Shown here piece after piece: positions 3,910 to 50,933 of a stretch of 64,000 bases of DNA (its first letter is position 1; every line of letters begins with the position of its first letter). Location of the stretch: NCBI GenBank assembly GCA_003134785.1, contig PLCN01000002.1, forward strand, positions 186,219-250,218, read 5' to 3'. The notes beneath the pieces are model-generated. The model was not told the DNA's origin. It was given only the letters and a program-made list of their open reading frames with translations, and searched no databases. The position numbers and the translations under genes were made by a program. This stretch comes from Spartobacteria bacterium (GTDB taxonomy: Bacteria; Verrucomicrobiota; Verrucomicrobiia; Chthoniobacterales; UBA10450).

Positions 3910-6900
3910 TTAACCCGCGGAAGGCTGAGGCGCCTGCCAACCCGCTGTTGGCAGCGCTTGCGGACGGCGGCGAAGCTTCCGGCGTTGCCGCAATTGATCG
4001 AGAGCAAGGTAGATAACCGGCGTGGTGTAAAGCGTCAGCATTTGGGAGACGATCAAGCCGCCGACAATGGCAATGCCGAGCGGCTTTCGCAGTTCGCTGC
4101 CAACACCCATACCGATAGCGAGTGGCACGGCGCCGAAAAGCGCGGCGGTCGTCGTCATCATGATCGGGCGGAAGCGCACGAGGCAGGCCTGGTAAATAGA
4201 TTCTTCCGGCGTGAGACCCTGGTGGCGTTCGGCCTCGAGCGCGAAATCCACCATCATGATCGCATTCTTTTTCACGATGCCGATGAGCAGAATGATGCCG
4301 ATGGTCGAGACGATGGAAAGCTCGTCGCCGCTCACGAGCAGCGCGAGCAACGCCCCCAATCCCGCCGACGGCAGAGTGGAAAGAATCGTGAGCGGGTGGA
4401 TAAGACTTTCGTAAAGCATGCCGAGCACGATGTAGACGGCGATGAGCGCGGTGAGAATAAGAAGCGGTTGCGAGGACAGGGACGCTTGAAAGACCTGCGC
4501 CGTTCCGGCGAAACTTCCGCGAATGCCCGAAGGCATGCCCAACTCCTTCGCCGCGCGCTGAATGATCTGCGTCGCTTCGCCTAACGAGACGCCAGGCGCG
4601 GTGTTAAAGGAGACGGTCACGCACGGAAACTGGCCCTGATGATTGACGGAGAGCGGCGTATTCGCGGTCTCGAAATGCGCGATGGTGCTCAGCGGCACCT
4701 GCTTGCCGGAGTTAGACTTGACATAAATACTGTCGAGCGAGGTTGGGTCGAGCTGGAACCTGGGATCCACTTCGAGCACGACGTGATACTGGTTTTGCTC
4801 CGTATAAATGATCGAAACCTGCCGCTGGCCGAACGCGCTGTAGAGAGTGCTGTCCACGGCCTGCGGCTGGATGCCGAGACGCGCGGCGGCGTCGCGATCG
4901 ATCACAACGTTCTCTTGCAAGCCGCGAAATTGCTGATCGCTGGTCGCGTCTTTGATCTGGGGATACTCTTGCAACTTCGTGACGAGTTTCGGCGCCCACG
5001 AATTCAGCTCCTCGATGTTTTGATCGGTGAGAGCGTATTGATAGAGCGCCTTCGAAGAGCGGCCACCGACGCGAATATCCTGGCCGGGTTGAAGGAAAAG
5101 ATTCGCGCCGGTGATTTTCGAGAGCTTCTGCCGCAGCCGCGCGATGATCACCCCGACATCATCTTTGCGTTCGTTCTTGCCGCTGCCTTTCGGTTTCAAA
5201 CTGATGAACATCCGTCCGCTATTCAAGGCCGAGCCGCTGCCACCACCGAAAAACGAGCCGACCGCTTGCACGGCCGGATCCGCCATGACCGTTTTCACAA
5301 TCGCATCCTGTTTTTCCTGCATGGCTGCGAAGGAAATGTCCTGCGCGGCCTCCGTCGCGCCCATCATTTGCCCGGTGTCCTGTTGCGGGAAAAATCCTTT
5401 CGGCACAACGAAGTAAAGCCAGACGGTGGCGACGATGACCGCTCCGGTCACAACGAGCATGAGATATTCGTGGCGGAGCACCCATTTCAAGGTGTGCGTA
5501 TAGAAATCGTGCATCGCATCGAAGCCGCGTTCGCTTGCGCGATAAATCGGGCCGCGTTTTCTGCCGGAATCTTCCTGTTTCAAGAAGCGGCCGCAGAGCA
5601 TCGGAGTAAGCGTCAGCGAGACGACGCCGGAGACGAGAATTGCGGCACTGAGCGTGACGGCAAATTCGTGGAACAAGCGACCGATCAATCCGCTCATGAA
5701 AAGCAACGGAATAAAAACAGCGACCAGCGACAAGCTGATGGAAATCACCGTGAATCCGATCTGGCGCGCACCCTTCAACGCCGCGTTGAAAGGCGATTCG
5801 CCCTGCTCGAGGAAGCGAACGATATTTTCGATCACAACAATCGCATCGTCCACGACGAAGCCAGTCGAAACGGTGAGCGCCATGAGCGAAAGATTGTCCA
5901 GGCTATAACCGCAGAGCCACATCACGCCGAAGGTGCCGGCGATCGCGAGCGGCATCGTGATGCCGGCGATGAACGTCGGCCAAAAGCGGCGGAGAAAGAG
6001 AAACATCACCATCACGACCAGCGCCATTGTGATGAGAAGCGTGAGCTGCACGTCACGCACCGACGAGCGAATCGTGGTCGTGCGGTCGTTCATTACGTCA
6101 AGCCGGACGTTCGGCGGGAGCCACGTGCGCAATTGCGGAAGCATGGCGTTGACCAGGTCCGTGGTGCGGACCACGTTCGCGTCCGGCTGCTTGAAAATGA
6201 CGAGGAGGACGGCGCGTTTATTGTTAAAGAGGCCGGCCTGATCGCGGTTTTCCTGCGCATCGATGGCGGTGCCAATGTCGCGCAATGGCACGGCCGCGCC
6301 GTTATGTTGCGCGACGATGATGGGCTGATATTGCGACGCCTGTAAAAGCTGATCGTTGCTCGAAATGACAAAACGTTGCTCAGGACCATCGAGCGCTCCT
6401 TTCGGAGAGTTGACGTTCACCTGCGAAAGGGTCGTGCGAATGTCTTCGATGCTCAGGCCCATCGAAGCGAGCGCGACCGGATTGACCTGCACGCGCACGG
6501 CAGACTTCGCGCCGCCACCGATAACCACCTGACTGACGCCTTCCACCTGGCTGATGCGCTGGCCGATGATTTGATCGGCCAGATTGTAGACCTCCGAGAG
6601 CGGCTGCGTGTCCGAAGTCATGGCCAGGATCATGATAGGCGCGTCGGAAGGATTCACCTTTCGGTAGGACGGCGGATTCGGGAGCCCGCTCGGCAATTCC
6701 CCGGCCGCCGCATTGATCGCGCTCTGGACGTCGCGTGCGGCGCCGTTGATGTCGCGATTGAGATCGAATTGAATCGTGATGGACGATCCGCCTAACGAGC
6801 TCACAGAAGTGATTTCAGAAACGCCGGCGATTTGCGCGAAACGGCGTTCGAGCGGTGCGGCCAGGGACGATGCCGCGGTCCCCGGATCGACCCCAGGCTC

Positions 6901-7059
6901 CTGCGCGTTCACCGAGATCGTGGGGAAATCAACTTTCGGCAGCGGCGCCACCGGCAAAAAATGATAAGCGACCGCGCCAAAGAGCAAGATGCCCGCGGCG
7001 AGCAACGAGGTCCCAACCGGCCGGCGAACGAATGGCTCAGAAACGTTCATGTTCGCCAT
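3910..7059 (-). CDS. RND multidrug efflux inner-membrane transporter (MdtC-like)
   Basis: The product has 1049 residues, the usual length for HAE1 RND pumps. An N-terminal TM helix follows MNVSEPFVRRPVGTSLLAAG. The proton-relay Asp pair appears in STGFVVDDAIVVIEN and the relay Lys in LLIGIVKKNAIMMVD. Two large periplasmic loops give the porter and docking domains. It is the last gene of a three-gene minus-strand operon and overlaps the preceding RND gene by 23 nt. Two different RND subunits after one adaptor is the MdtABC arrangement, in which the pumps form a heterotrimer. No outer-membrane channel gene follows. Confidence 0.92.
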   Translation of the reverse strand: MANMNVSEPFVRRPVGTSLLAAGILLFGAVAYHFLPVAPLPKVDFPTISVNAQEPGVDPGTAASSLAAPLERRFAQIAGVSEITSVSSLGGSSITIQFDLNRDINGAARDVQSAINAAAGELPSGLPNPPSYRKVNPSDAPIMILAMTSDTQPLSEVYNLADQIIGQRISQVEGVSQVVIGGGAKSAVRVQVNPVALASMGLSIEDIRTTLSQVNVNSPKGALDGPEQRFVISSNDQLLQASQYQPIIVAQHNGAAVPLRDIGTAIDAQENRDQAGLFNNKRAVLLVIFKQPDANVVRTTDLVNAMLPQLRTWLPPNVRLDVMNDRTTTIRSSVRDVQLTLLITMALVVMVMFLFLRRFWPTFIAGITMPLAIAGTFGVMWLCGYSLDNLSLMALTVSTGFVVDDAIVVIENIVRFLEQGESPFNAALKGARQIGFTVISISLSLVAVFIPLLFMSGLIGRLFHEFAVTLSAAILVSGVVSLTLTPMLCGRFLKQEDSGRKRGPIYRASERGFDAMHDFYTHTLKWVLRHEYLMLVVTGAVIVATVWLYFVVPKGFFPQQDTGQMMGATEAAQDISFAAMQEKQDAIVKTVMADPAVQAVGSFFGGGSGSALNSGRMFISLKPKGSGKNERKDDVGVIIARLRQKLSKITGANLFLQPGQDIRVGGRSSKALYQYALTDQNIEELNSWAPKLVTKLQEYPQIKDATSDQQFRGLQENVVIDRDAAARLGIQPQAVDSTLYSAFGQRQVSIIYTEQNQYHVVLEVDPRFQLDPTSLDSIYVKSNSGKQVPLSTIAHFETANTPLSVNHQGQFPCVTVSFNTAPGVSLGEATQIIQRAAKELGMPSGIRGSFAGTAQVFQASLSSQPLLILTALIAVYIVLGMLYESLIHPLTILSTLPSAGLGALLALLVSGDELSIVSTIGIILLIGIVKKNAIMMVDFALEAERHQGLTPEESIYQACLVRFRPIMMTTTAALFGAVPLAIGMGVGSELRKPLGIAIVGGLIVSQMLTLYTTPVIYLALDQLRQRRKLRRRPQALPTAGWQAPQPSAG

Positions 7060-10000
7060 CGACTCCCGCTAACTCAGGCTCGTCATCGTGCTCGTAAACG
7101 TTCGCGGGCCCTGTCCGGAGCGGCAATTCCGCTTGCTCCAATCGCCCTCTGTTTCGGCGTTCCTCGATCCAGTGGCCTAGGCGATCGAGATAGAGATAAA
7201 TCACCGGAGTGGTGTAAAGCGTCAGGAATTGCGAGAGGAGCAAACCGCCCACGATGGAAATACCGAGCGGACGCCGGAGCTCACTCCCAGTGCCGGTTTC
7301 CAAGGCTAGCGGCAATGCGCCGAGGAGCGCCGCCGCCGTCGTCATCATGATGGGGCGAAAGCGCAGCAGGCACGCCTGATAAATTGACTCCTCGGGCGAC
7401 ATCCCTTCTTCGCGTTCCGCTTCGAGCGCGAAGTCGATCATCATGATCGCGTTCTTTTTCACGATGCCGATGAGCAGGATGATGCCGATGAGCGCCACGA
7501 GTGAAAAATCGATGTGGCAAACGAGCAGCGCGAGAAGCGCGCCCACGCCGGCGGAAGGGAGCGTCGAAAGGATCGTGATCGGATGAATGTAACTTTCGTA
7601 GAGAACGCCAAGCACGATGTAGATGACGACGATGGCAGCGAGAATGAGAAACGGCTCGCTTGTGAGCGAGGAACGAAATTCCGCGGCCGCGCCGGAAAAC
7701 GTCGCGGCGATCGTGTCTGGCAACCCTATTTCTTGCCCGGCCTTTTCGATCGCGGGAATCGCGTGACTGAGCGAGCTGCCCGGCTGCAGGTTGAATGAGA
7801 TGGTTGCGGCGGGGAATTGGCCTTGATGCAAAATCGCGAGTGGAGTGTTGCTCTCGCGCATGGTGGCAAACGCACTCAGCGGCACGGGCTGTCCGCTGCT
7901 CGACTTCACGTAAATCTTGTCGAGCACATCGGGCGATGTCCGGAAGTTCGGCTCGACCTCGAGGACGACGCGGAATTGATTGAGCTGCGTGAAGATGATC
8001 GAGACCTGCCGCTGGCCAAACGCATCGTAGAGCGTGTCGTCGATGGCCTGCGGCAGGACGTTGAGCCGCGATGCTTTCTCGCGATCGACATCGACGTTGA
8101 TCTGCAAGCCATTGACCTGCTGATCGCTCGCGACGTCGCTCAGTTGCGGCAACGTGCCGAGCTTTTGGACCAGCTTCGGCATCCACTCGGCGAGCTCGGC
8201 CGAATCCGCGTCCTGGAGCAAGTATTGGTATTGCGTGCGACTGACGCGCGCGTCGATTTGCAAATCCTGCGCCGCTTGCATGAAGAGCGAGACGCCTTCG
8301 ACATCGCGCGTCGCATCGCGCAAACGATTGATGATGTCGTCCGCGCCCGACTGCCGCTGATTGTGCGGTTTGAGCACGATGTAGAGCCGCGCCGTGTTCA
8401 CGGTGGCGTTCACGCTGCCCGCGCCGAGGGAAGCCGACACGCTCGTGACATCCGGATCGCGCCGGACGATGTCGGAAATCGCGTGGACGCGCTCGACCAT
8501 CGCCTTGAACGAAATGGTCTCCGCTGCATCAGTCACTCCCACAATCACGCCGGTGTCCTGCTGAGGCAGCAGGCCTTTCGGGATAACGATGTAGAGCAGG
8601 ATCGTCGCGACGAGCGTGATCAGCGCGACGATCAAGGTGAACCGCTGATGAGCGAGCACCCAGCGGAGGCCGTGCTCGTAGAGATTGCGGAAACCGGTGA
8701 AGAAATCTTCCGTCCAGCGATAGAAGCGGCCGCGGTGCGATTGCTCTTCTTCTTTTTCCGCGCGCAGCAGCTTGGCGCACATCATCGGCGTGAGAGTGAG
8801 GGAAACGAAAGCCGAGACGGCGACGGCCACGCTCATCGTGATCGCGAATTCGCGAAAGAGGCGGCCAACGATTCCGGTCATGAACAGAAGCGGTATGAAA
8901 ACGGCGATGAGCGAGACGCTCAACGACACCACCGTGAAACCAATCTGGCGCGCGCCTTTCAGCGCCGCTTCCAGCGGCGGATCGCCGGCTTCGATGTAGC
9001 GCACGATGTTCTCGATCATCACGATCGCGTCATCCACGACGAAGCCGGTCGAGATGGTCAGCGCCATCAACGAGAGGTTATCGAGACTGAACCCGGCGAG
9101 ATACATGACGCCGAATGTGCCGATGAGCGAGAGCGGCAGCGCCACACTCGTAATCACGGTCGCCCACAGTTTTCGCAGGAAAACGAACATCACCATCACC
9201 ACGAGCGCGATCGTCAGCAGCAGCGTGAGTTGCACGTCGGTCACGGATGCGCGGATCGTTTCCGTGCGGTCTGCCAGCACGGTCACTTTCACCGAAGGCG
9301 GCAGGGTCCCGGTCAATCGCGGAAGCAACTGCTTCACGGCATCGACGGTTTGAATAATATTCGCCCCCGGCTGGCGTTGAATGTCGAGCAGCACCGCCGG
9401 TTTTTCTCCGCTCTTCGTGCCCACCCAGGCCGCGAGCTGATCGTTCTCCACGCTGTCGATGATGTTTGCGATATCGCCCAGCCGAATTGGCGCGCCGTTT
9501 TTGTACGCCACCACGATCGGTTTGTAGGCGTCGGCGGAAAAAATCTGGTCGTTCGATCCGATCGTGTACGATTGCCGCGGCCCGTCGAAACTTCCTTTGG
9601 GCGCATTGACGTTCGCCTGCCCGAGGATTGTCCTCACATCCTCGAGGCTGAGACCGAGCGCGGAAATCGCAGCCGGGTTCACCTGCACCCGCACCGCCGG
9701 TTTTTGATTTCCCTGGATCGTGACCAGGCCGACGCCGGTGACTTCGCTCAGTTTCTGCGCCAGCAGCGTGTCGGCAAAATCGTTCACCCGATCCAGCGGC
9801 AAACTGTCGGAGGTGATGGAAAGCGTGAGGATCGGCGTGTCGGCCGGATTGACCTTGTTGTATTTGGGCGGATTCGGAAGGTCCTTGGGCAGAAATCCAC
9901 CGGCGACATTGATGGCGGCCTGCACATCCTGCGCGGCCACGTCGATCGGCCGGTCGAGCACGAACTGGAGTGTGATCGTCGAGGTTCCGAACGAACTGGT

Positions 10001-10246
10001 CGAATTCATCGAGGACAACCCGCTGATCTGGCCGAACTGCCGCTCGAGCGGGGTCGTGATCGACGAGACCATCACTTCCGCGCTCGCGCCTGGATATTGC
10101 GTGCTGACCTGGATCGTCGGGAAATCGACCGTCGGCAGAGCGGAGATCGGGAGCAGCTTGTAACCGAGCAGACCGAGCAAAATCACACCCGCCATGAGCA
10201 GCGAAGTCGCGACTGGTCGGCGAATGAACGGCTCGGAAATGTTCAC
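7037..10246 (-). CDS. RND multidrug efflux inner-membrane transporter (MdtB-like)
   Basis: The product has 1069 residues. It starts MNISEPFIRRPVATSLLMAG and shows the same catalytic features as its partner: the Asp-Asp pair in STGFVVDDAIVMIEN and the Lys pair in IGIVKKNAIMMID. It overlaps the adaptor gene upstream by 4 nt and the second RND gene downstream by 23 nt, so all three are translationally coupled. Resemblance to MdtB/MdtC suggests export of bile-salt-like, aminocoumarin or other amphiphilic compounds; substrates are not determined here. Confidence 0.92.
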   Translation of the reverse strand: MNISEPFIRRPVATSLLMAGVILLGLLGYKLLPISALPTVDFPTIQVSTQYPGASAEVMVSSITTPLERQFGQISGLSSMNSTSSFGTSTITLQFVLDRPIDVAAQDVQAAINVAGGFLPKDLPNPPKYNKVNPADTPILTLSITSDSLPLDRVNDFADTLLAQKLSEVTGVGLVTIQGNQKPAVRVQVNPAAISALGLSLEDVRTILGQANVNAPKGSFDGPRQSYTIGSNDQIFSADAYKPIVVAYKNGAPIRLGDIANIIDSVENDQLAAWVGTKSGEKPAVLLDIQRQPGANIIQTVDAVKQLLPRLTGTLPPSVKVTVLADRTETIRASVTDVQLTLLLTIALVVMVMFVFLRKLWATVITSVALPLSLIGTFGVMYLAGFSLDNLSLMALTISTGFVVDDAIVMIENIVRYIEAGDPPLEAALKGARQIGFTVVSLSVSLIAVFIPLLFMTGIVGRLFREFAITMSVAVAVSAFVSLTLTPMMCAKLLRAEKEEEQSHRGRFYRWTEDFFTGFRNLYEHGLRWVLAHQRFTLIVALITLVATILLYIVIPKGLLPQQDTGVIVGVTDAAETISFKAMVERVHAISDIVRRDPDVTSVSASLGAGSVNATVNTARLYIVLKPHNQRQSGADDIINRLRDATRDVEGVSLFMQAAQDLQIDARVSRTQYQYLLQDADSAELAEWMPKLVQKLGTLPQLSDVASDQQVNGLQINVDVDREKASRLNVLPQAIDDTLYDAFGQRQVSIIFTQLNQFRVVLEVEPNFRTSPDVLDKIYVKSSSGQPVPLSAFATMRESNTPLAILHQGQFPAATISFNLQPGSSLSHAIPAIEKAGQEIGLPDTIAATFSGAAAEFRSSLTSEPFLILAAIVVIYIVLGVLYESYIHPITILSTLPSAGVGALLALLVCHIDFSLVALIGIILLIGIVKKNAIMMIDFALEAEREEGMSPEESIYQACLLRFRPIMMTTAAALLGALPLALETGTGSELRRPLGISIVGGLLLSQFLTLYTTPVIYLYLDRLGHWIEERRNRGRLEQAELPLRTGPANVYEHDDEPELAGVDGEHERF

Positions 10247-11430
10247 GGCTTGGCGGGCTTGGTCGTGCGCTGCTTTGGCGAAGCGGTCGGCTGTTGTGGC
10301 TGCGGAGTTGTCAGCTCGACGTGCGCGCCCGGTTGAAGCTTGTACTGTCCATCCACGACCACCTGCTCGCCGGCTTTCAAGCCATCGTCGATCAGGGCGA
10401 CATTCGCCTGTGTCTGCGCGACTTTGACCGGCCGCATCTCGACCGTCTTGTCCGGCTTGATCACATACGCGTAGGTTCCTTGCGGGCCGCGCTGCACCAC
10501 GCTCGCCGGGACGACGATCGCATTTTTCTTCGTCGTCAAAACAAGCCGCGCGTTCACAAATTTACCCGGCCAAAGTTTCAGATCATCATTCGGGAACGTC
10601 GCCTTCAGCTTCACCGTGCCGGTCGTCTGATCGATTTCGTTGTCCACGACGGCAAGCGTGCCTTCACCGAGCGTTGTCGTGTTTCCGCGATCTAGGGCAG
10701 AGACGTGCAATCCGCCATTCGCGCCGCCTTCAGTCAAAATCGCAGACAAATTCTGTTCGGGCAGAGTGAACACGACCGAAATCGGATGGATCTGCGTGAT
10801 GACAACGATCCCGATTTGATCCGCGGCGTGGACGATGTTGCCCACATCGACAAGTCGCACGCCGGTCCGGCCATCGATGGGTGATTTGATCTGCGTGTAT
10901 TCGAGCTGCGTCCTGGCGTTCTCGATGGCAGCCTGGTCCGCTTGGACCGCGGCTTGGAATTGGTCGACCGAATATCTTGACGCGTCGAAATCCGCCGGGG
11001 CGATCACTTTTTTGCTCAGCAAATCCGTGTTGCGCGCGAACGTCACTTTCGCATTACCCAGTTGCGCTTCGTCCTGCGCTTTTTTGGCAATCGCCTGATC
11101 GAGCGCCGCCTGAAACGGGCGGGGATCGACCACTGCGAGCGGGCCGCCCTTTACGACATCCTGTCCCTCGGTGAAAAGCACCTGCTGCAACTCGCCATCT
11201 ACGCGGGTGTGAACGGTCACGGTGTTGAACGCCTGGACGGTTCCGAGGCCATCGAGGTAAATCGGCATGTCTTTCTCTTCGACTTTTCCGGCAACGACCG
11301 GCACCGGCGCGCCGCCGCCAGTATTGCGCCCGCTCGATTGTGCCTGATTGGCGGAGCCGTGATGACAGCTCCACCATCCAACGATAACGATGAGAGCGCC
11401 GGCAATTCCGAAAATAGTACGCTTGGACAT
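10243..11430 (-). CDS. RND efflux periplasmic adaptor (MdtA-like membrane fusion protein)
   Basis: The product has 395 residues from the ATG at 11430; the open frame runs back to 11580 but the extra residues carry no sensible signal. The N-terminus MSKRTIFGIAGALIVIVGWW is a membrane anchor. It is followed by a biotinyl-lipoyl-like segment (VHTRVDGELQQVLFTEGQDV), an alpha-hairpin (about 120-170), a beta-barrel (GTVKLKATFPNDDLKLWPGK) and the membrane-proximal domain, with a Pro/Lys-rich tail. It bridges the RND trimer to an outer-membrane channel. It is the first gene of the operon. No TolC-type gene is nearby, so a shared channel encoded elsewhere must be used. Confidence 0.9.
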   Translation of the reverse strand: MSKRTIFGIAGALIVIVGWWSCHHGSANQAQSSGRNTGGGAPVPVVAGKVEEKDMPIYLDGLGTVQAFNTVTVHTRVDGELQQVLFTEGQDVVKGGPLAVVDPRPFQAALDQAIAKKAQDEAQLGNAKVTFARNTDLLSKKVIAPADFDASRYSVDQFQAAVQADQAAIENARTQLEYTQIKSPIDGRTGVRLVDVGNIVHAADQIGIVVITQIHPISVVFTLPEQNLSAILTEGGANGGLHVSALDRGNTTTLGEGTLAVVDNEIDQTTGTVKLKATFPNDDLKLWPGKFVNARLVLTTKKNAIVVPASVVQRGPQGTYAYVIKPDKTVEMRPVKVAQTQANVALIDDGLKAGEQVVVDGQYKLQPGAHVELTTPQPQQPTASPKQRTTKPAKP

Positions 11431-11545
11431 TGAATTTAGGCGCCAGGTCCCTCGAGGCCCAGGTCGAAGGAGTTCGGCGTCTTGGCTTGTCAGGACTCTA
11501 CTTGGTTTGATTACGATTCGTGTCTGGTGCTCGCGGCGCGCTGTG

Positions 11546-11905
11546 TCAACAGACGTGGATGGCGATTTTTCGATAGGCATTCACGAGATTGAACACCGAT
11601 TTGGCAAAATCGGCCCTAGTCAGCTCGGTTCCTGGAGTTTGGAGAGTAGTCCTGCGGGTAAAAACCGGTTTCAAAAATGACCCTTCTGCCGTCCGCGAAA
11701 CGGCACAAATGCCCGCGCCATAAGTAGTCGTAATTCCCGTCCCAGGCACGACGCCATTCAGCGCGTCTCCGCTCGAACACATGCTCTCCACGGCGACGGT
11801 CGATGCTTCGTTGCTTTGGTTCACGCGCCGAGTCGCCTCACGCATGGAAAGAACGAGAATGATCGCTGAAACAACAAACAGGTTGGCCAGGGCGATTTGT
11901 TTCAT
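11546..11905 (-). CDS. Hypothetical small membrane-anchored protein
   Basis: The product has 119 residues. Residues 3-22 (QIALANLFVVSAIILVLSMR) form a hydrophobic anchor or uncleaved signal; the rest is polar and unassigned. It lies upstream of the efflux operon on the same strand, 115 nt before the adaptor's ATG. The main argument for a real gene, beyond the hydrophobic N-terminus, is the shared CTATCTC...CTTAAG motif 62 nt upstream of its ATG, at a distance similar to that seen before the sigma factor and the peptidoglycan-binding protein. Confidence 0.5.
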   Translation of the reverse strand: MKQIALANLFVVSAIILVLSMREATRRVNQSNEASTVAVESMCSSGDALNGVVPGTGITTTYGAGICAVSRTAEGSFLKPVFTRRTTLQTPGTELTRADFAKSVFNLVNAYRKIAIHVC

Positions 11906-19890: not shown

Positions 19891-20123
19891 ATGAAGCTCG
19901 CGTTTACCTGGTCGAATCTCACCCGCAGCGGGCTCCTGCTGAGCTTGTGCGCCGCAGTCAGCATCCCTTTGACGACCGCGGCCGGATGCGCCGGGCGCGC
20001 ATCACCGTGACCGGAGATTTTGCGGAGCAGTTCGATTTCAAACTGGAAGGAGAATTCAACCAGGCCGACGGCATCAATTCCCCCCGCACGGCGTTTTCGA
20101 CGACCGATGCCATCGCGAATTGA
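19891..20123 (+). pseudogene. Porin remnant B: signal peptide joined to an internal porin strand
   Basis: From the ATG at 19891 the sequence encodes MKLAFTWSNLTRSGLLLSLC plus AAVSIPLTTAA, a signal peptide homologous to that of remnant A. Then, shifted in frame, come MRRARITVTGDFAEQFDFKL and EGEFNQADG, matching the first barrel strands of the intact porin (RLRRARISLMGDFAEQFDFK). A stop follows at 20121-20123. The region between signal and first strand, and the whole remaining barrel, are deleted. Confidence 0.75.
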
Positions 20124-26384: not shown

Positions 26385-27026
26385 GGCCGGGCGCTCAATC
26401 ATCATTTCGCATCTGTCCGTTCCACCCGATCGCCACCAAGGATGGAAGGGCAGCAAAAGCTTAGTTATGAAATAACTTCTCGCCGGGCGAGTCGCGACCT
26501 ATCATTCCTGACGTTAGCTTCGAGCGCTTATCATGGAAGAGACAGGGGCAAAATTGACGGGTGGTGAACCTCTCAGTATCGGCACTCACTGTAATCGTGG
26601 ATTCCCCCCAAGTGGGGATTTATGTCAAGTAGAAATTCTCGGCCGATGACGAGGCGTGATCATTCTTGAACGGGAGCTTCGCGACGCAAATTGATTCCAA
26701 GTCCCACCGCCACCAACGTGCTCGAGCAATTCGCGACTGGCGCAGATTCAGTGATGTCGATGACTTCGGTGAGCGGGAGTTTGAAAACGCTGAACGCGTA
26801 GGCCTGACCGATGGAAAGATTGGAGCAAGAGAAAGAATTATCTTTCCGTCGCGTTCGAAACGGATTGATTCGCTTTTTCGCATCGGATCCTTTGATCGAG
26901 ATCAGACAATTGCCGATCCTGGTTATAGTCGCTTGCTTGTTCCTCCGGCCGCACTCGCTGTCCTTCTTTTTTTCTTTACTCTGCGAGCCAGCTCGCTCTA
27001 GATCGGGGAAGCTACCGTTCCGCAAA
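26385..27026. other. Intergenic region upstream of the porin
   Basis: This is about 640 nt without a supported gene. A weak TCCCC...GGGGA hairpin lies near 26605-26619. The plus-strand frame from 26811 runs into the porin but has no signal-peptide logic before 27027. A minus-strand frame (26660-27025) ends in a segment vaguely like a PEP-CTERM sorting tail, not strong enough to call. Confidence 0.4.
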
Positions 27027-28484
27027 ATGCTAAATATGAAAATTCGGATCGTTTTTCCGTTCGCGGCTTTCTTTTCGTTCCTGTTTTGTTCGCTCCTGCG
27101 CGCTCAGGATGCGGCCAGCCAATCGGCGGACGCGCGCTTGCTAAGTCTGGAGAAAGCCGTTCGCCAACTACAGCAACGGAACGCCGAGCTAGAAAGCGAA
27201 GTGCACCAACTAAAGTCGAAGAGCGGCCCGACGGCGCCAATGTCTACTTCGCCCGATGCCAGGTTCACCACCACAACCGACAGTAAAGCGGTCTCCGCTC
27301 CAACTCCGCCGCCGGTGGACGTGCATCCCGGCGGCTCGGAATTCAAGCTGACGCTCGGCGGTTATATCCAGGTGAATTTCGAGGGCGGCGATGTTTCCGC
27401 TTTCGAGGGCCGTTTCGGTTCCACTGCGCTGAAAGACCGCTTCCGGCTCCGCCGTGCCCGCATTTCGCTGATGGGCGATTTCGCGGAGCAATTCGATTTC
27501 AAGATCGAAGGCGATTTCGAGCAAAGCGACTCAGCCATCACCGCACTGAAGACGGTCAACGTCGCCACCGGCGCCACCACGACCGTTAATACTGCAAATC
27601 GGACCGAATTTTCCGGCACCGACATTTTTATTAACTGGCATGGCATTCCCGAAGCCAACTTCAAAGTCGGCCAATTTAAAGCGCCTTTCGGGCTGGAGAA
27701 CCTCACTCCGGACACACTGATTTATACAATCGAGCGCAGCCTCGCCACCGGTGCACTCACGCCCGAACGGCAAATCGGCGCGATGCTTTGGGGCAAGCCG
27801 CTGGCCACCGCCGTGCCGGATGAGAAAGATTTCGTGACTTACTATGCCGGCATCTTCAACGGCAACGGGCGCAATTTTAACAACAACGATAATAACAACT
27901 TCATGGGCGTCGGCCGGCTCGAGCTCCTGCCCTTCAAAGGAAAAATCATGGGACAGGACGCGAGCTTGAAGCTCGGGGGCGATTATCTGTTCAGCAGCGA
28001 CGATGCCGGCACCAATATATCGCCTACCCTGAATTTGAAGGTGAATCCCGATGGTTCGTTGACTTCCTACACGTTGCCGGGCGCGGACAAGCGGCACGCG
28101 TGGAGCATCGACGCCTGGCTTAACGTCGGGCCGTTTGATTTGATCGGCGAATATCTTGACGAGAGCGTGGATGGAAGGACGGTCAACGGAGTCGCGCCCG
28201 GATTCCGGGACTTCGAAGCCCACGGCTGGTACGTGCAGGGCAGCTATTTTATCATCCCGAAAAAACTGCAGGCGGTCGTGAAATGGGAAGAGCTTTCGCC
28301 GGATCAACTGCCGAACGACGGCATACATTCCGTCACCGCCGGCCTGAACTACTATATCCACGCCGATAATGTAAAAGTTATGGCCGATTACGTGCATACC
28401 TGGTCGGATTTCCGCGAGGCTAATCCGCGGTTCGGCGACGACCAGTTCGACGAAATCGTGCTGCGGATGCAGGTGATTTTCTAA
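27027..28484 (+). CDS. OprO/OprP-type outer-membrane porin
   Basis: The product has 485 residues from the ATG at 27027 (a second ATG at 27036 is equally possible). A signal peptide ends at SLLRA. It is followed by a coiled coil of about 30 residues (LLSLEKAVRQLQQRNAELES) that would form the trimeric periplasmic stalk, a Thr/Pro linker, and a 16-strand-type barrel beginning KLTLGGYIQVNFEGGD. The C-terminal residue is Phe, as expected for outer-membrane insertion. It probably transports anions such as phosphate or pyrophosphate. It is the only intact relative of porin remnants A and B. Confidence 0.88.
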   Translation: MLNMKIRIVFPFAAFFSFLFCSLLRAQDAASQSADARLLSLEKAVRQLQQRNAELESEVHQLKSKSGPTAPMSTSPDARFTTTTDSKAVSAPTPPPVDVHPGGSEFKLTLGGYIQVNFEGGDVSAFEGRFGSTALKDRFRLRRARISLMGDFAEQFDFKIEGDFEQSDSAITALKTVNVATGATTTVNTANRTEFSGTDIFINWHGIPEANFKVGQFKAPFGLENLTPDTLIYTIERSLATGALTPERQIGAMLWGKPLATAVPDEKDFVTYYAGIFNGNGRNFNNNDNNNFMGVGRLELLPFKGKIMGQDASLKLGGDYLFSSDDAGTNISPTLNLKVNPDGSLTSYTLPGADKRHAWSIDAWLNVGPFDLIGEYLDESVDGRTVNGVAPGFRDFEAHGWYVQGSYFIIPKKLQAVVKWEELSPDQLPNDGIHSVTAGLNYYIHADNVKVMADYVHTWSDFREANPRFGDDQFDEIVLRMQVIF

Positions 28485-46323: not shown

Positions 46324-46725
46324 ATGAAGATAGTGCCGCCGCCTGCAAAGCAGATAACGCAACCGAGTTTCCTAAACGGAGAGCGCGCTGAGCCGGTGGA
46401 AATCTGGAAGGCGCGGAAGTTCATCCACGAGCATTCGGACGAAGAACTTTCCCTGACGAAAGTTTCGAAGCTCGTCAACGCTAGTGCCAATCACTTCAGC
46501 GAAAAATTCAAAGAGGTGACAGGCGTGAATTTTGTCGATTACATTGCCAGCATACGCATAGAGAAAGCGCGCGATCTCCTGCAAGATCGACATCTTCGGA
46601 TCAGTGAAATCGCGTTCGCCGTCGGCTTTCAATCGTTGTCGCAGTTCAACCGCGTCTTCAAAAAGTTGTCGGACAAATCACCAACACAATATCGCGCGAC
46701 ACATGCGAAGCATCCTCGCCAGTAA
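46324..46725 (+). CDS. Short AraC-type DNA-binding protein (HTH domain only)
   Basis: The product has 133 residues from the ATG at 46324 (a GTG at 46306 is possible). Residues 25-130 are an AraC HTH pair: LTKVSKLVNASANHFSEKFK and ISEIAFAVGFQSLSQFNRVF. The sensor domain found in full-length relatives such as the PocR-AraC protein at 44844 is absent, so it is either a truncated derivative or a constitutive SoxS/MarA-like regulator. It lies 104 nt upstream of a DoxX gene. Confidence 0.8.
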   Translation: MKIVPPPAKQITQPSFLNGERAEPVEIWKARKFIHEHSDEELSLTKVSKLVNASANHFSEKFKEVTGVNFVDYIASIRIEKARDLLQDRHLRISEIAFAVGFQSLSQFNRVFKKLSDKSPTQYRATHAKHPRQ

Positions 46726-46829
46726 ATTGGTCGGAGCGCGGAGAATTTTGGTCGGAATATTTTCCGTAAAAACGCGTAGTCGATGGATTGAGATTTGGGC
46801 CACACTCCAGCGATCTCGAACCTTGCTGC

Positions 46830-47249
46830 ATGAACTCTCTGAATCGATTTACGGACCCAGTTTACTGCATCGTGCGACTGATTGTCGGTTTAGTTTACGC
46901 GTGTCACGGCGGCCAAAAACTTCTCGGCTTCCCGGGCGGCGGTCACGGGGTGGACGGGATCGCATTTGTCGCGGGGATCATCGAATTCGTCGGCGGATTT
47001 CTGATTGCATTTGGATTGTTCACGCGCATCGCCGCGTTTTTGACGAGCGGCGAGATGGCGGTGGCCTATTTCATGTTTTACGCGGGAGTTGTGCCTACAC
47101 TGGAGGCGAAGTTTTTCCCAATCATGAATGGAGGCGAACTCGCCCTGGTGTATTGCTGGGTTTTCTTTTTCATTATCTTTTACGGTCCGGGACGTTGGAG
47201 CATCGATGCGCTTTGGTGCAAAGACAGAGGCAGCGCGCCGTCCACCTGA
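46830..47249 (+). CDS. DoxX family membrane protein (second)
   Basis: The product has 139 residues from the ATG at 46830; the open frame starts earlier at 46788. Four TM helices with DoxX features: VYCIVRLIVGLVYACHGGQK, then GIIEFVGGFLIAFGLFTRIA and EMAVAYFMFYAG. It is only distantly similar to the DoxX at 17212, so it is not a recent duplicate. It follows the short AraC gene and precedes the cytochrome operon. The role is probably in membrane redox or stress response, not specified. Confidence 0.82.
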   Translation: MNSLNRFTDPVYCIVRLIVGLVYACHGGQKLLGFPGGGHGVDGIAFVAGIIEFVGGFLIAFGLFTRIAAFLTSGEMAVAYFMFYAGVVPTLEAKFFPIMNGGELALVYCWVFFFIIFYGPGRWSIDALWCKDRGSAPST

Positions 47250-47368
47250 CCCAAACTTGAGATACTTCTTGTTAAGCCAATGGCGCGGGCAAACAGGAGC
47301 GACGATTACAAAAGCGCAGGAAATCCGCAGCCGAATAGATTTTCAGTAGCTCAAAGTTCGAAAAATTT

Positions 47369-47779
47369 ATGAAATCACGATATTCCGCTGCCAGTTGGTC
47401 GAGAGCGCTGATCTTACTGGCCGCGTTCTCGATGAGCAGAACGCTGCTGGCGCAAGATTGGAAAGCTCCGCCCTCCGTCGTCAACCGGCCCAATCCGGTA
47501 CCTGCAAACGCAAACACAATTGCGCTCGGTCAAAAACTTTACGTCGGAAATTGCATGATGTGTCACGGCCAGGCCGGCAAAGGCGATGGGCCAGGTGCGG
47601 CCGCCTTGGAGAAAAGGCCAGCGGATTTGACTGCGCGCATCCGATCAGGAGAAACCGATGGCGAGCTGTTCTGGAAAATCTCGGAAGGTCGGTCGCCAAT
47701 GATTTCGTGGAAGGGAACTTTGTCGGAGACACAACGCTGGGAGCTCGTTAATTACATCAAAACTCTGGCCGGTAAGTAA
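47369..47779 (+). CDS. Secreted monohaem cytochrome c
   Basis: The product has 136 residues. The signal peptide ends at LLAQD. A class I cytochrome c domain carries the haem site NCMMCHGQAGKGDGP (C62, C65, H66), with a probable Met axial ligand in GRSPMISWKG and the C-terminal helix RWELVNYIKTLAGK. It is first in a three-gene run; its TAA stop is immediately followed by the ATG of the barrel protein (TAAATG). An electron-carrier role in the periplasm is expected. Confidence 0.88.
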   Translation: MKSRYSAASWSRALILLAAFSMSRTLLAQDWKAPPSVVNRPNPVPANANTIALGQKLYVGNCMMCHGQAGKGDGPGAAALEKRPADLTARIRSGETDGELFWKISEGRSPMISWKGTLSETQRWELVNYIKTLAGK

Positions 47780-49156
47780 ATGCGACGTCCAGACCATCCT
47801 ATCGTGAATAGAACCATCACGTGGGGCTTCGTCGGGCTAAGTCTGTTGGCAACTTCGTTTGCCTCCTTTGGGCAGGAGCCAGCCTCTGCTTCCGATTACG
47901 TGTCCCGCGCCGAGTACGACAAACTCAAGGCGGAACACGAAGCGCTGAAGCAAGAAATGGATGAGCTAAAGACGGCGGTGCGGCAGATGGCGAACGGCAC
48001 AGTGCCTGCCATCCCCGCCGAAGGGCCTTCCACCGCAAAGGCGACATCGCCTGAAGGAAAACAACTTGTCACGACTACAACAGCGCCAGCCGCAAGCGAT
48101 GCCGTACCCATCGAAACCTCCGGCCCGCTGGCGACCCACAGCTTCAGCATTGTCGGAGACGCTGAATTTCAGTTCGGCAAAATTTCCCATCAACACGGCG
48201 CATTCATGTTTGCCGATTTTGCGCCGATCTTCCTGTTTCGGGGCGGCGATAGAATTCTCTTTGAAGCTGGTTTTGATTTCACCATTCAGAACAATGCGCC
48301 CGGCAGCTCCGGCTACGCCACCACCTTAAATCTAAGCTTCGCGACAATCGATTACATAATAAACGACTACGTTACCTTCACGGGTGGCAACATGCTGCTG
48401 CCGCTGGGAACTTATAGTGAGCGTAGCGCGGGCTGGTTGAACAAATTTCCCGACGCCCCTTTGCCGCGATCGGTTCTTCCCGGTAACGGCATCGGCGTGC
48501 AATTGCGCGGCGGCATCCCGCTCGGAGAGAAAGGCGCGAGCCTGACCTATTCCGGTTTTGTGATAAACGGCCCCGGCTCGATGGACGGCAGCGGCGACGC
48601 TGGTCAACTCGACCTTGGTGGCAATGTGGGCCTCACCAGTGATGGCAAGCTTACCAACAACCTGCACGGGGGCGCAGGGGAAGGCGGACGCGTCGCCATT
48701 TTTTGGCCGTGGAAGCCGCAATACGATCTGGAAGTCGGCGTCTCGGGAATGTCGAGCCGGTATGATAACGCTGGCAGGCAACAGTACAACGCCGGGGTCG
48801 TGGATGCGTCATTACATCTCGGCCCTTCGGTCGAAGTCAAAGGCGAATACATGAATACTTGGGTCGGAACGGACAACGCGGGTACCATCAGGCCCCGTGG
48901 TTGGTGGGTGCAGGGAGGATACAAATTGGCGGGTCTCAAGCTAGGCCTGCCGTATCTTGACAAGCTGGAGTTAGTAGGTCGCTACGATACGGTAAACGAC
49001 GCCTTGGGTACTTGGACAAAGCGCGGGACGGTTGGTGCAGTTTACTACGTCACCAACACCCTCTGGCTTGAGGGCGACTATGAATTTACGAGCAATCGCG
49101 GCCCCAATCCCGCGCCGGACGATTCACTGCTCTTTCAAATCTCGTACGGATTCTAG
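47780..49156 (+). CDS. Outer-membrane beta-barrel protein between two cytochrome genes
   Basis: The product has 458 residues. A signal peptide is followed by a short coiled coil (SRAEYDKLKAEHEALKQEMD, residues 41-70), a Pro/Thr linker and then a barrel of alternating amphipathic strands with a C-terminal Phe (FQISYGF), typical of outer-membrane proteins. It is related in style to, but not an obvious homologue of, the OprO/P porin at 27 kb. Its position directly between two c-type cytochromes in one operon suggests a link between outer-membrane transport and electron transfer. Confidence 0.82.
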   Translation: MRRPDHPIVNRTITWGFVGLSLLATSFASFGQEPASASDYVSRAEYDKLKAEHEALKQEMDELKTAVRQMANGTVPAIPAEGPSTAKATSPEGKQLVTTTTAPAASDAVPIETSGPLATHSFSIVGDAEFQFGKISHQHGAFMFADFAPIFLFRGGDRILFEAGFDFTIQNNAPGSSGYATTLNLSFATIDYIINDYVTFTGGNMLLPLGTYSERSAGWLNKFPDAPLPRSVLPGNGIGVQLRGGIPLGEKGASLTYSGFVINGPGSMDGSGDAGQLDLGGNVGLTSDGKLTNNLHGGAGEGGRVAIFWPWKPQYDLEVGVSGMSSRYDNAGRQQYNAGVVDASLHLGPSVEVKGEYMNTWVGTDNAGTIRPRGWWVQGGYKLAGLKLGLPYLDKLELVGRYDTVNDALGTWTKRGTVGAVYYVTNTLWLEGDYEFTSNRGPNPAPDDSLLFQISYGF

Positions 49157-49162
49157 ACGATT

Positions 49163-49483
49163 ATGACTACTCCTCACTTCTTTGCCGTCGCGACCATCGG
49201 CGCGGCAGTCGCCACCATCGCCTCCCCTGCGACCGCGCAAACCACCGCCCCGGCTTCGAAAACCAAAGTGGAAACAACGGCAGCAACCCAGGAAAAAATA
49301 GAGCTATCGGGAGCCGAGCTGTGGACGCTTAATTGCAACCGCTGCCATATGATTCGCAGCCCGGGTGAGTTCACCGCCGCCCAATGGGAGGCGATCATGA
49401 TGCACATGCGAGTCCGGGCCAACATTCCCGCCGCTCAAGCTCGGGAAATCCTAAAATTCCTCCAAGCAGGTGCCGGCAAATAA
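49163..49483 (+). CDS. Small secreted cytochrome-c-like protein
   Basis: The product has 106 residues. The signal peptide ends ATAQ, followed by an Ala/Thr-rich linker and then one haem motif WTLNCNRCHMIRSPGEF (C58, C61, H62). A Met-rich helix IMMHMRVRANIP could supply the sixth ligand. The sequence CNRCHxxRxPxEFTxxQW is typical of small cytochromes partnered with photosynthetic or di-haem redox proteins. It starts 6 nt after the barrel gene. Confidence 0.82.
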   Translation: MTTPHFFAVATIGAAVATIASPATAQTTAPASKTKVETTAATQEKIELSGAELWTLNCNRCHMIRSPGEFTAAQWEAIMMHMRVRANIPAAQAREILKFLQAGAGK

Positions 49484-49799: not shown

Positions 49800-50933
49800 A
49801 TGAAAAACGTTTTCACTCTCGGAATCGAGGAGGAATTTCAGATCATCGATCCGGAAACGCGTGAGCTGCGCTCGCACATCCAGGAGATTTTGGCAGACGG
49901 CAAAATACTTTTGAAGGAACGCGTCAAGTCCGAGATGCACCAATCGGTAGTTGAACTGGCCACCGAAGTCTGTAGTGACGCAGCTTGCGTGCGACAGCAG
50001 GTCGTTCAGCTTCGCAGCGATTTGGCGACGATTGCCGCGCGCGACGGACTGAAGATCGCGTCGGCGGGCACGCATCCATTCTCGCATTGGATGGACCAGT
50101 TGATCACGGTGGACGAGCGTTATGCCACCATCGTCAAAGACATGCAACAAATCGCGCGCGCGAACCTTATTTTCGGGTTGCATGTTCACGTCGGAATTCC
50201 GGATCGCGAAGTGGCGATTGCGGTCATGAATCAGGCGCGTTATTTCCTTCCGCATCTTTACGCGCTGTCGGTCAACTCGCCCTTCTGGCTGGGACAAAAC
50301 ACCGGCCTAAAAGCGTATCGGCAGATGATCTTCGAGCGTTTCCCGCGAACGGGCATTCCCGATGCGTTTGAAAGCCTGTCCGAGTACGAAGATTACCTGA
50401 AGCTACTCGTCGCCACCGGTTGCATCGACAACGCCAAGAAAATTTGGTGGGACATCCGACTGCATCCGTTCTTCGATACGCTCGAATTCCGCATCTGTGA
50501 CGCGCAATCGCGGGTCGATGATACCATCGCGCTCGCCGCGTTGATGCAGGCGATCGTGGTCAAACTGCATAAACTGCTGCGGCAAAACGTCAGCTTTCGG
50601 ATGTATCCGCGGCGCTTGATCGATGAGAACCGCTGGCGCGCGTCGCGCTACGGTATCGACGGAAAACTGATCGATTTCGGCCGTAGATGCGAGGTGGACG
50701 AGCGCGAATTACTTCACGAAATGCTCGAGTTCATCGCGACGGAAGTAGACGAGCTGGGCAACCATGAACAGATTGCGCACATCGAAAAAATTATGCGCGA
50801 GGGAACCGGCGCGGATCGGCAATTAGCCGTGTGGGAATGCACGCGGGATATGAAAGCGGTGGTTGATCACATTGTTCGGGAGACGTACGAAGGACTCAGT
50901 GTTTCGGCGCGCTCAGCATTGACGCACGTCTGA
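49800..50933 (+). CDS. YbdK-type carboxylate-amine ligase (GCS2 family)
   Basis: The product has 377 residues. Glutamate-cysteine-ligase-2 family: LGIEEEFQIIDPETREL at the N-terminus, GLHVHVGIPDREVAIAVMN, WWDIRLHPFFDTLEFRICDA and the C-terminal helices. YbdK has weak glutamate-cysteine ligase activity; the physiological product in most bacteria is unknown. Since the window also carries bacillithiol-type genes, a role in thiol or peptide-amide formation is possible but not evident. It is transcribed alone. Confidence 0.9.
   Translation: MKNVFTLGIEEEFQIIDPETRELRSHIQEILADGKILLKERVKSEMHQSVVELATEVCSDAACVRQQVVQLRSDLATIAARDGLKIASAGTHPFSHWMDQLITVDERYATIVKDMQQIARANLIFGLHVHVGIPDREVAIAVMNQARYFLPHLYALSVNSPFWLGQNTGLKAYRQMIFERFPRTGIPDAFESLSEYEDYLKLLVATGCIDNAKKIWWDIRLHPFFDTLEFRICDAQSRVDDTIALAALMQAIVVKLHKLLRQNVSFRMYPRRLIDENRWRASRYGIDGKLIDFGRRCEVDERELLHEMLEFIATEVDELGNHEQIAHIEKIMREGTGADRQLAVWECTRDMKAVVDHIVRETYEGLSVSARSALTHV

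Follow-up and report, generated by a model that had tools for sequence, protein, structure and literature searches.

A conserved gene pairing of an OprO/OprP-like barrel with single-haem cytochromes as a putative outer-membrane redox module

Introduction

In the 64,000-nucleotide stretch of Spartobacteria DNA analyzed here (the window; genome G000, 4.39 Mb in 25 contigs), a gene for an outer-membrane barrel lies between two genes for small c-type cytochromes. This arrangement raises the question whether the three genes form a functional unit and, if so, what a porin could do with cytochromes that carry one haem each. A sequence-only reading had proposed either a small electron conduit or a porin that brings a redox substrate to periplasmic cytochromes. 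Here, we combine structure modelling with surveys of gene neighborhoods in related genomes, and conclude that a conduit or redox-porin function is plausible.

Results

The three-gene unit in the window

The unit consists of cytA, the barrel gene and cytB (Table 1). The cytA stop codon directly abuts the barrel ATG (0 nt gap) and 6 nt separate the barrel stop codon from the cytB ATG, so that the reading frames and junctions are exactly those described by the sequence-only reading. Its statement that both cytochromes are monohaem was also correct, as cytA and cytB contain one CXXCH site each (CMMCH and CNRCH, respectively) and the barrel protein contains none. Based on Pfam matches, the unit is bordered by genes for an AraC-type regulator and DoxX on its 5' side and by genes for a GCS2 glutamate-cysteine ligase and a universal stress protein on its 3' side. 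No quinone-linked complex was found beside the module in the window by Pfam and the neighbor survey, and no multihaem gene was found within six genes of the barrel gene. Elsewhere in the window, positions 3913–11580 of the minus strand harbor RND efflux genes, with an AcrB-type gene at one end and an HlyD/CusB-type membrane fusion gene at the other.

Table 1 Features of the cytA-barrel-cytB unit, in window positions
Feature	Positions	Strand	Basis
cytA, exported class I mono-haem cytochrome c (CMMCHG...GDG)	47369-47779	+	136 aa ORF, Pfam, alignment
Barrel: signal peptide, coiled-coil helix, linker, 16-strand OprO/OprP-like porin	47780-49156	+	458 aa ORF, AlphaFold2 model, fold match
Barrel loop at the L3 position, joining strands 5 and 6 (residues 207-235)	48398-48484	+	conservation per element, alignment
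cytB, minimal mono-haem cytochrome (CNRCH...HMR), one half of a DHC-type domain	49163-49483	+	106 aa ORF, Pfam
Left mosaic part, similar to L078: cytA with the barrel-gene leader and coiled coil	47303-48027	+	DNA and residue identity
Right mosaic part: barrel domain and cytB, like L040	48112-49482	+	DNA identity, barrel tree

Structure and conservation of the barrel

The AlphaFold2 model, computed from 55 sequences, contains a helix at residues 43–71 and 16 strands across residues 122–457, with pLDDT values mostly above 90 over the barrel part. The closest fold in the PDB was that of OprO (Z 26.9, rmsd 3.2, 299 residues), and OprP was tied with it. Because of this model and fold match we regard the gene product as a barrel, in agreement with the sequence-only reading. 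No porin family matched the window protein at E ≤ 0.1 in Pfam, where the cut-off of Porin_O_P (PF07396) was not reached; a PDB sequence search returned coiled-coil matches only, and an NCBIfam scan of the 55 barrels yielded isolated spurious matches only. A profile match of the barrel to Porin P was weak (E = 0.025), and 20 of the 55 relatives matched Porin_O_P at E ≤ 0.01.

The loop between strands 5 and 6 showed 2.83 bits per column, compared to 0.5–1.8 bits for the other extracellular loops, and was the sole loop conserved as much as the strands. We place it at the L3 position of general porins, which we take to form the constriction of the pore. A conserved loop motif, W[IVL]NK[LF]P[DT]xPL, distinguishes the barrel from OprO and OprP.

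The two cytochromes

In cytA, the CMMCH site is located at residue 62 and residue 111 is the candidate Met ligand; C62, C65, H66 and M111 were invariant in an alignment of 11 rows. The protein was assigned to Cytochrome_CBB3 by Pfam (44.9 bits; cut-off 27). The smaller cytB has its CNRCH site at residue 58 and a haem domain of ~57 aa. It matched the DHC family (PF09626) with 23.5 bits at a cut-off of 22.2, and this match covers just profile positions 2–55 of 116. Among 49 rows, C58, C61, H62, W75 and M82 of cytB were invariant and H81 and R83 were near-invariant. The cytB profile aligned with cytA at an hhalign probability of 94.9%, and a fold search with the cytB model gave one plausible match, the DHC structure 3u99 (E 0.4, probability 0.97). 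By eye, the signal peptide of the window cytB is a plain one without a lipobox; a loose pattern recognized a lipobox in 31 of 75 parsed relatives, a few of them doubtful.

Conservation of the barrel-cytB pairing

A contig search with an alignment query confirmed 138 barrel relatives, the best 80 of which were analyzed together with the window (81 loci in total). The contig scan selected on two motifs common to 13 seed barrels, 12 of which had a cytochrome neighbor, and some of the counts below are limited by contig ends. The 80 relatives span Verrucomicrobiota, Planctomycetota, Omnitrophota, Pseudomonadota and other groups. In a profile search, all 81 loci (best 80 of 138 plus the window) had cytB on the strand of the barrel gene and at most 1.5 kb away from it, upstream in 34 loci and downstream in 47. 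Ten of the 80 loci sit in genomes that gave rows to the cytB profile; when these ten and the window were left out, cytB still lay beside the barrel in 70 of 70 loci from the best 80 of 138.

The association was also seen from the side of cytB. Among 58 relative genomes, matches above 100 bits occurred in 11, each time next to a barrel gene or what remains of one; all other matches stayed below 51 bits, the best of them at 50.6 bits. These 11 were the ten genomes with a barrel at E ≤ 1e-20 and G024, where cytA and cytB flank ~660 nt with leader and coil fragments and the barrel domain is absent (L034, 2162–3562), representing either a remnant or an assembly fault. A barrel match at E ≤ 0.001 was obtained in 12 of the 58 genomes; the match in G004 (E 1.3e-8) corresponds to a distant porin that lacks both cytA and cytB. 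A full-length barrel paralogue with no cytochrome gene nearby was found once (L035; G035:C146, 2186–3451), in a genome harboring a complete module as well, and four weaker barrel matches (L013, L016, L122, L123) had neither cytA nor cytB in the flanks examined.

The identity of the second cytochrome was more variable, and cytA is not universal in the module loci. Of the 47 loci in which cytB lies downstream, 39 contain cytA as judged by profile (best 80 of 138 plus the window). A different mono-haem cytochrome, cytX, lies 3' of the barrel gene in 16 loci of the same set, and a dihaem ORF follows the barrel gene in most other loci with cytB upstream (best 80 of 138). Thus, of the triad whose conservation the sequence-only reading had suggested examining, the cytB-barrel pair was retained in 81/81 loci and cytA was not. 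The pattern that this reading had named as speaking against it, a barrel gene occurring mostly without cytochromes in relatives, was not what we found, with cytB kept in every analyzed locus and one lone paralogue elsewhere. Because the cytB pairing is kept in other genomes, adjacency of the three genes by chance is excluded, and the unit is a conserved module that spans several phyla. The module is patchy, as a barrel at E ≤ 1e-10 was present in only 5 of 387 genomes of a phylum-wide sample.

As a control, neither of the two clear Porin_O_P genes in the genome of the window organism adjoins a c-type cytochrome gene (0/2; 1.5 kb flanks examined). An ordinary Porin_O_P porin at window positions 26811–28484 (92.6 bits), not far behind a P-type cation ATPase gene, has no cytochrome neighbor and is a usable control. 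A short Porin_O_P fragment with an internal TGA at ~19983–20123 of the window is probably a broken porin gene.

Gene fusions and neighboring genes in relatives

In-frame fusions of cytA, coiled coil and barrel were found in 3 of the 80 loci (best 80 of 138), namely L085 (608 aa), L116 (583 aa) and L119 (573 aa). Each fusion comprises, in this order, a signal peptide, cytA, a linker, the coiled coil and the barrel, and is followed by a separate cytB. These fusions are the strongest hint that cytA and the barrel may share one complex.

Genes for quinone-linked proteins were found within 9 kb of the module in part of the 81 loci (best 80 of 138 plus the window): a cytochrome b relative in at least 10, an NrfD relative in at least 4 and a FAD/Fe-S subunit in at least 8, these counts being lower bounds because contigs end. 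One clade (L042, L053–L055, L069, L072, L105) shows the order cytB, barrel, cytX, FAD/Fe-S protein, Rieske protein, cytochrome b and hexahaem cytochrome, with the Rieske or cytochrome b gene being missed by the simple gene caller in some of these loci. A Rieske and a cytochrome b gene also follow cytX in L067 (Omnitrophota), and L074, L101, L102 and L118 have a co-directional NrfD gene upstream, accompanied by a 4Fe-4S protein gene in three of the four. An operon for a FAD/4Fe-4S protein, a Rieske protein, cytochrome b and a hexahaem cytochrome was noted directly after the porin-cytochrome genes in L025, L038, L039, L042, L053–L055, L072 and L105.

Other neighborhoods differed. In L030–L032 the triad lies amid parts of a set consisting of a two-component system, a cupredoxin/FG-GAP protein and a ferritin-like protein. 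Two proteobacterial loci are near copper-related genes: the L086 module, from a Methyloversatilis MAG, is near CopB and DUF305 genes, and the L100 module is near DUF411 and YHS genes. In the genome of the window organism, no match to Cytochrome_B was obtained and three NrfD matches were found, one of them in a gene order resembling what we take to be alternative complex III. Formate dehydrogenase-like Fe-S and NrfD-type subunit genes are located 4 to 18 kb before the window (L160; G000:C25:168000-182000), followed by selenocysteine-insertion-like genes; NrfD alone was recognized by search, and the other genes of this region were assigned by eye.

Mosaic origin of the window copy

The left part of the unit (47303–48027) shares 74% DNA identity over 730 columns with the syntenic locus L078 of the same genus, within a region (46384–48027) that matches L078 piecewise at 74–86%. 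To the right, positions 48112–49085 and 49315–49482 share 69% and 74% DNA identity, respectively, with L040, and positions 49814–50902 again match L078. Consistent with a change inside the barrel gene, barrel residues 31–60 are identical to L078 at 22 of 30 positions and to L040 at 7 of 30, and comparisons in protein windows place the switch from L078 to L040 near residues 63–120. In the barrel tree the window copy groups with L040 (99/97), in another barrel clade, whereas in the cytA tree it groups with L075–L080 (90/97, not starred). The cytB of the window most resembles the L040 protein (41 of 57 residues identical, versus 30–33 for the L074–L080 group).

Judged by these comparisons, the window copy is a natural mosaic, with a domain swap inside one gene. 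From the DNA matches, the trees and the cytB identity it follows that the barrel domain and cytB were exchanged together, while the leader, the coiled coil and cytA were kept. The donor order was not simply that of L040, because the L040 cytA sits between barrel and cytB. Joint exchange alone is no proof of an interaction between the barrel and cytB, because both are neighbors.

Discussion

Proposed function and alternative explanations

With middling confidence, we propose that the unit encodes a split porin-cytochrome module at the outer membrane, which uses single-haem cytochromes to exchange electrons between a solute in the pore and the respiratory chain. The OprO/OprP-like barrel would admit a small redox-active solute as far as the conserved constriction loop. 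As a single haem cannot bridge the membrane, the solute would have to enter the pore. On the periplasmic side, cytB, similar in size to the Cyc2 haem domain, would sit at the barrel mouth or inside it and exchange electrons with the solute. Held to the complex by a coiled-coil stalk or by fusion, cytA would act as the electron relay that connects cytB with inner-membrane complexes linked to quinones. In this mechanism, we infer that cytB contacts the barrel and occupies the plug position, that the stalk forms an oligomer and that electrons are transferred at all, as well as the direction and the substrate of the transfer; for the last of these, Fe(II), copper or another one-electron carrier in solution would be our guess. 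The gene fusions, the exclusive co-occurrence and the quinone-linked neighbors of some relatives favor an electron-transfer module, of which the trans-membrane step is putative.

The main rival of a split Cyc2-like module is use as a substrate porin, which we consider rather unlikely but not negligible. Here, the barrel would import a small redox compound and the cytochromes would be free periplasmic partners, none of them bound to the barrel, which oxidize or reduce this compound or serve a dehydrogenase encoded elsewhere. Such a role would agree with the fold, which is that of the substrate-selective porins OprO and OprP, with the Porin_O_P matches of 20/55 relatives (E ≤ 0.01) and with the plain signal peptide of the window cytB. 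It also has a parallel in ExtI, a porin-like protein in a Geobacter cytochrome cluster, which PMC5877670 ties to selenite and tellurite reduction. However, the cytA-barrel fusion in three loci argues for a physical or obligate partnership, and strong cytB matches were absent from every barrel- or remnant-free genome in the 58-genome set.

That the genes merely answer to one common signal, such as low oxygen or metal stress, without forming a machine is improbable. Regulators do occur near many loci, with AraC/PocR-type regulators in the window and relatives and two-component systems elsewhere, and the copper-related neighbors CopB and DUF305 (L086) and DUF411 and YHS (L100) would fit such a response. 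Against this stand the gene fusion and a pairing that outlasts changes of gene order and flanks across several phyla. We regard it as still less probable that the unit belongs to a conventional porin-multihaem conduit, whose multihaem member is encoded elsewhere or next door. The hexahaem cytochrome in the same operon of L042, L053–L055, L069, L072 and L105, all from the other barrel clade, could be read this way, but it lies beyond the Rieske and cytochrome b genes, as would a subunit of their complex. Moreover, with 16 strands the barrel falls short of the 26 strands of the MtrB type (PMC8406198), the six genes on either side of the window barrel include no multihaem gene, and MtrB_PioB was not found in the genome of the window organism by a search whose control matched in only 1 of 14 genomes.

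Returning to the split single-haem module, we tentatively suggest that it represents a multi-phylum class of redox modules built from separate single-haem parts, namely a porin, an obligate docked mini-cytochrome and an exchangeable adapter cytochrome. If this holds, the exchange seen in the window would mark the barrel domain and cytB as the working core, and the module would rank with the simplest known arrangements by which redox exchange takes place at the outer membrane. It would then bear on whether Verrucomicrobiota and Planctomycetota of soils and fresh waters take part in the redox cycling of iron, copper or humic matter. Single-haem modules would escape any survey in which a multihaem gene, or a haem motif within the porin itself, is a condition for detection: porin-cytochrome surveys sought multihaem partners (PMC5566968, PMC4245776), and the FeGenie search for Cyc2 drops proteins without a haem motif (PMC8406198).

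Comparison with known systems

No description of this module, including as a 'split Cyc2', was found in the open-access literature. Porin-cytochrome conduits (MtrAB/PioAB/MtoAB, Pcc) resemble it in that a porin gene adjoins c-type cytochrome genes, in the co-conservation of these genes (here 81/81 loci, best 80 of 138 plus the window) and in their quinone links. They differ in having eight or more haems, compared to one per cytochrome here, and 26 strands in Mtr, as described for the MtrB-type barrel in PMC8406198, compared to 16. Identity with a multihaem conduit was therefore rejected on haem and strand numbers. The porin-multihaem clusters of Verrucomicrobia differ from the module for the same kind of reason, as PMC5615132 describes partners with 8 haems and porins predicted to have at least 20 strands. 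A conduit-like cluster of Methylobacter combines a porin with two mono-haem cytochromes, but this porin belongs to the MtrB/PioB family and has a decahaem MtrA-type partner (PMC13322032).

OprO and OprP share the fold of the barrel (Z 26.9) and differ from it by the cytochrome neighbors present in nearly all loci here. DHC (PF09626; PDB 3u99) corresponds to cytB in that the cytB sequence matches one half of it and the fold is weakly alike, but cytB has one haem site instead of two, in a haem domain of ~57 aa.

A close parallel is Cyc2, an iron oxidase in which a mono-haem cytochrome is fused to a 16-strand OprO/OprP-like porin and the small haem domain is thought to plug the periplasmic opening (PMC8406198). 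The remark of the sequence-only reading that known conduits use multihaem cytochromes was incomplete in this respect, since Cyc2 (PMC8406198) manages with one haem and a 16-strand porin. Cyc2 and the module have in common one haem per cytochrome, a small cytochrome domain and the 16-strand OprO/OprP-like porin, and in the fusions L085, L116 and L119 the cytochrome is likewise N-terminal to the barrel. In contrast to Cyc2, the window has three separate genes, the fusions of relatives (3/80, best 80 of 138) use a different cytochrome, a coiled coil lies between cytochrome and barrel, and there are two cytochromes rather than one. The Cyc2 motif AXPXFAR[Q/K][T/Y], searched as P.FAR[QK][TY] within 20 residues before CXXCH, was found at none of the 250 CXXCH sites within 3 kb of the 81 barrels (best 80 of 138 plus the window). 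Likewise, comparison of the 55 barrels with three Cyc2-like proteins of the same phylum gave an hhalign probability of 0.4% over 18 columns, and BLASTP of the barrel against these three rows gave E 2.5. The module was thus rejected as Cyc2 by the motif, fusion and sequence tests. Cyc2-like fused cytochrome-porins with the exact motif pattern occur in 3 of the 387 sampled genomes of the phylum (L149–L151). The module, being split, with another haem motif and no detectable sequence similarity in the barrel, is not Cyc2 but is Cyc2-like in its anatomy.
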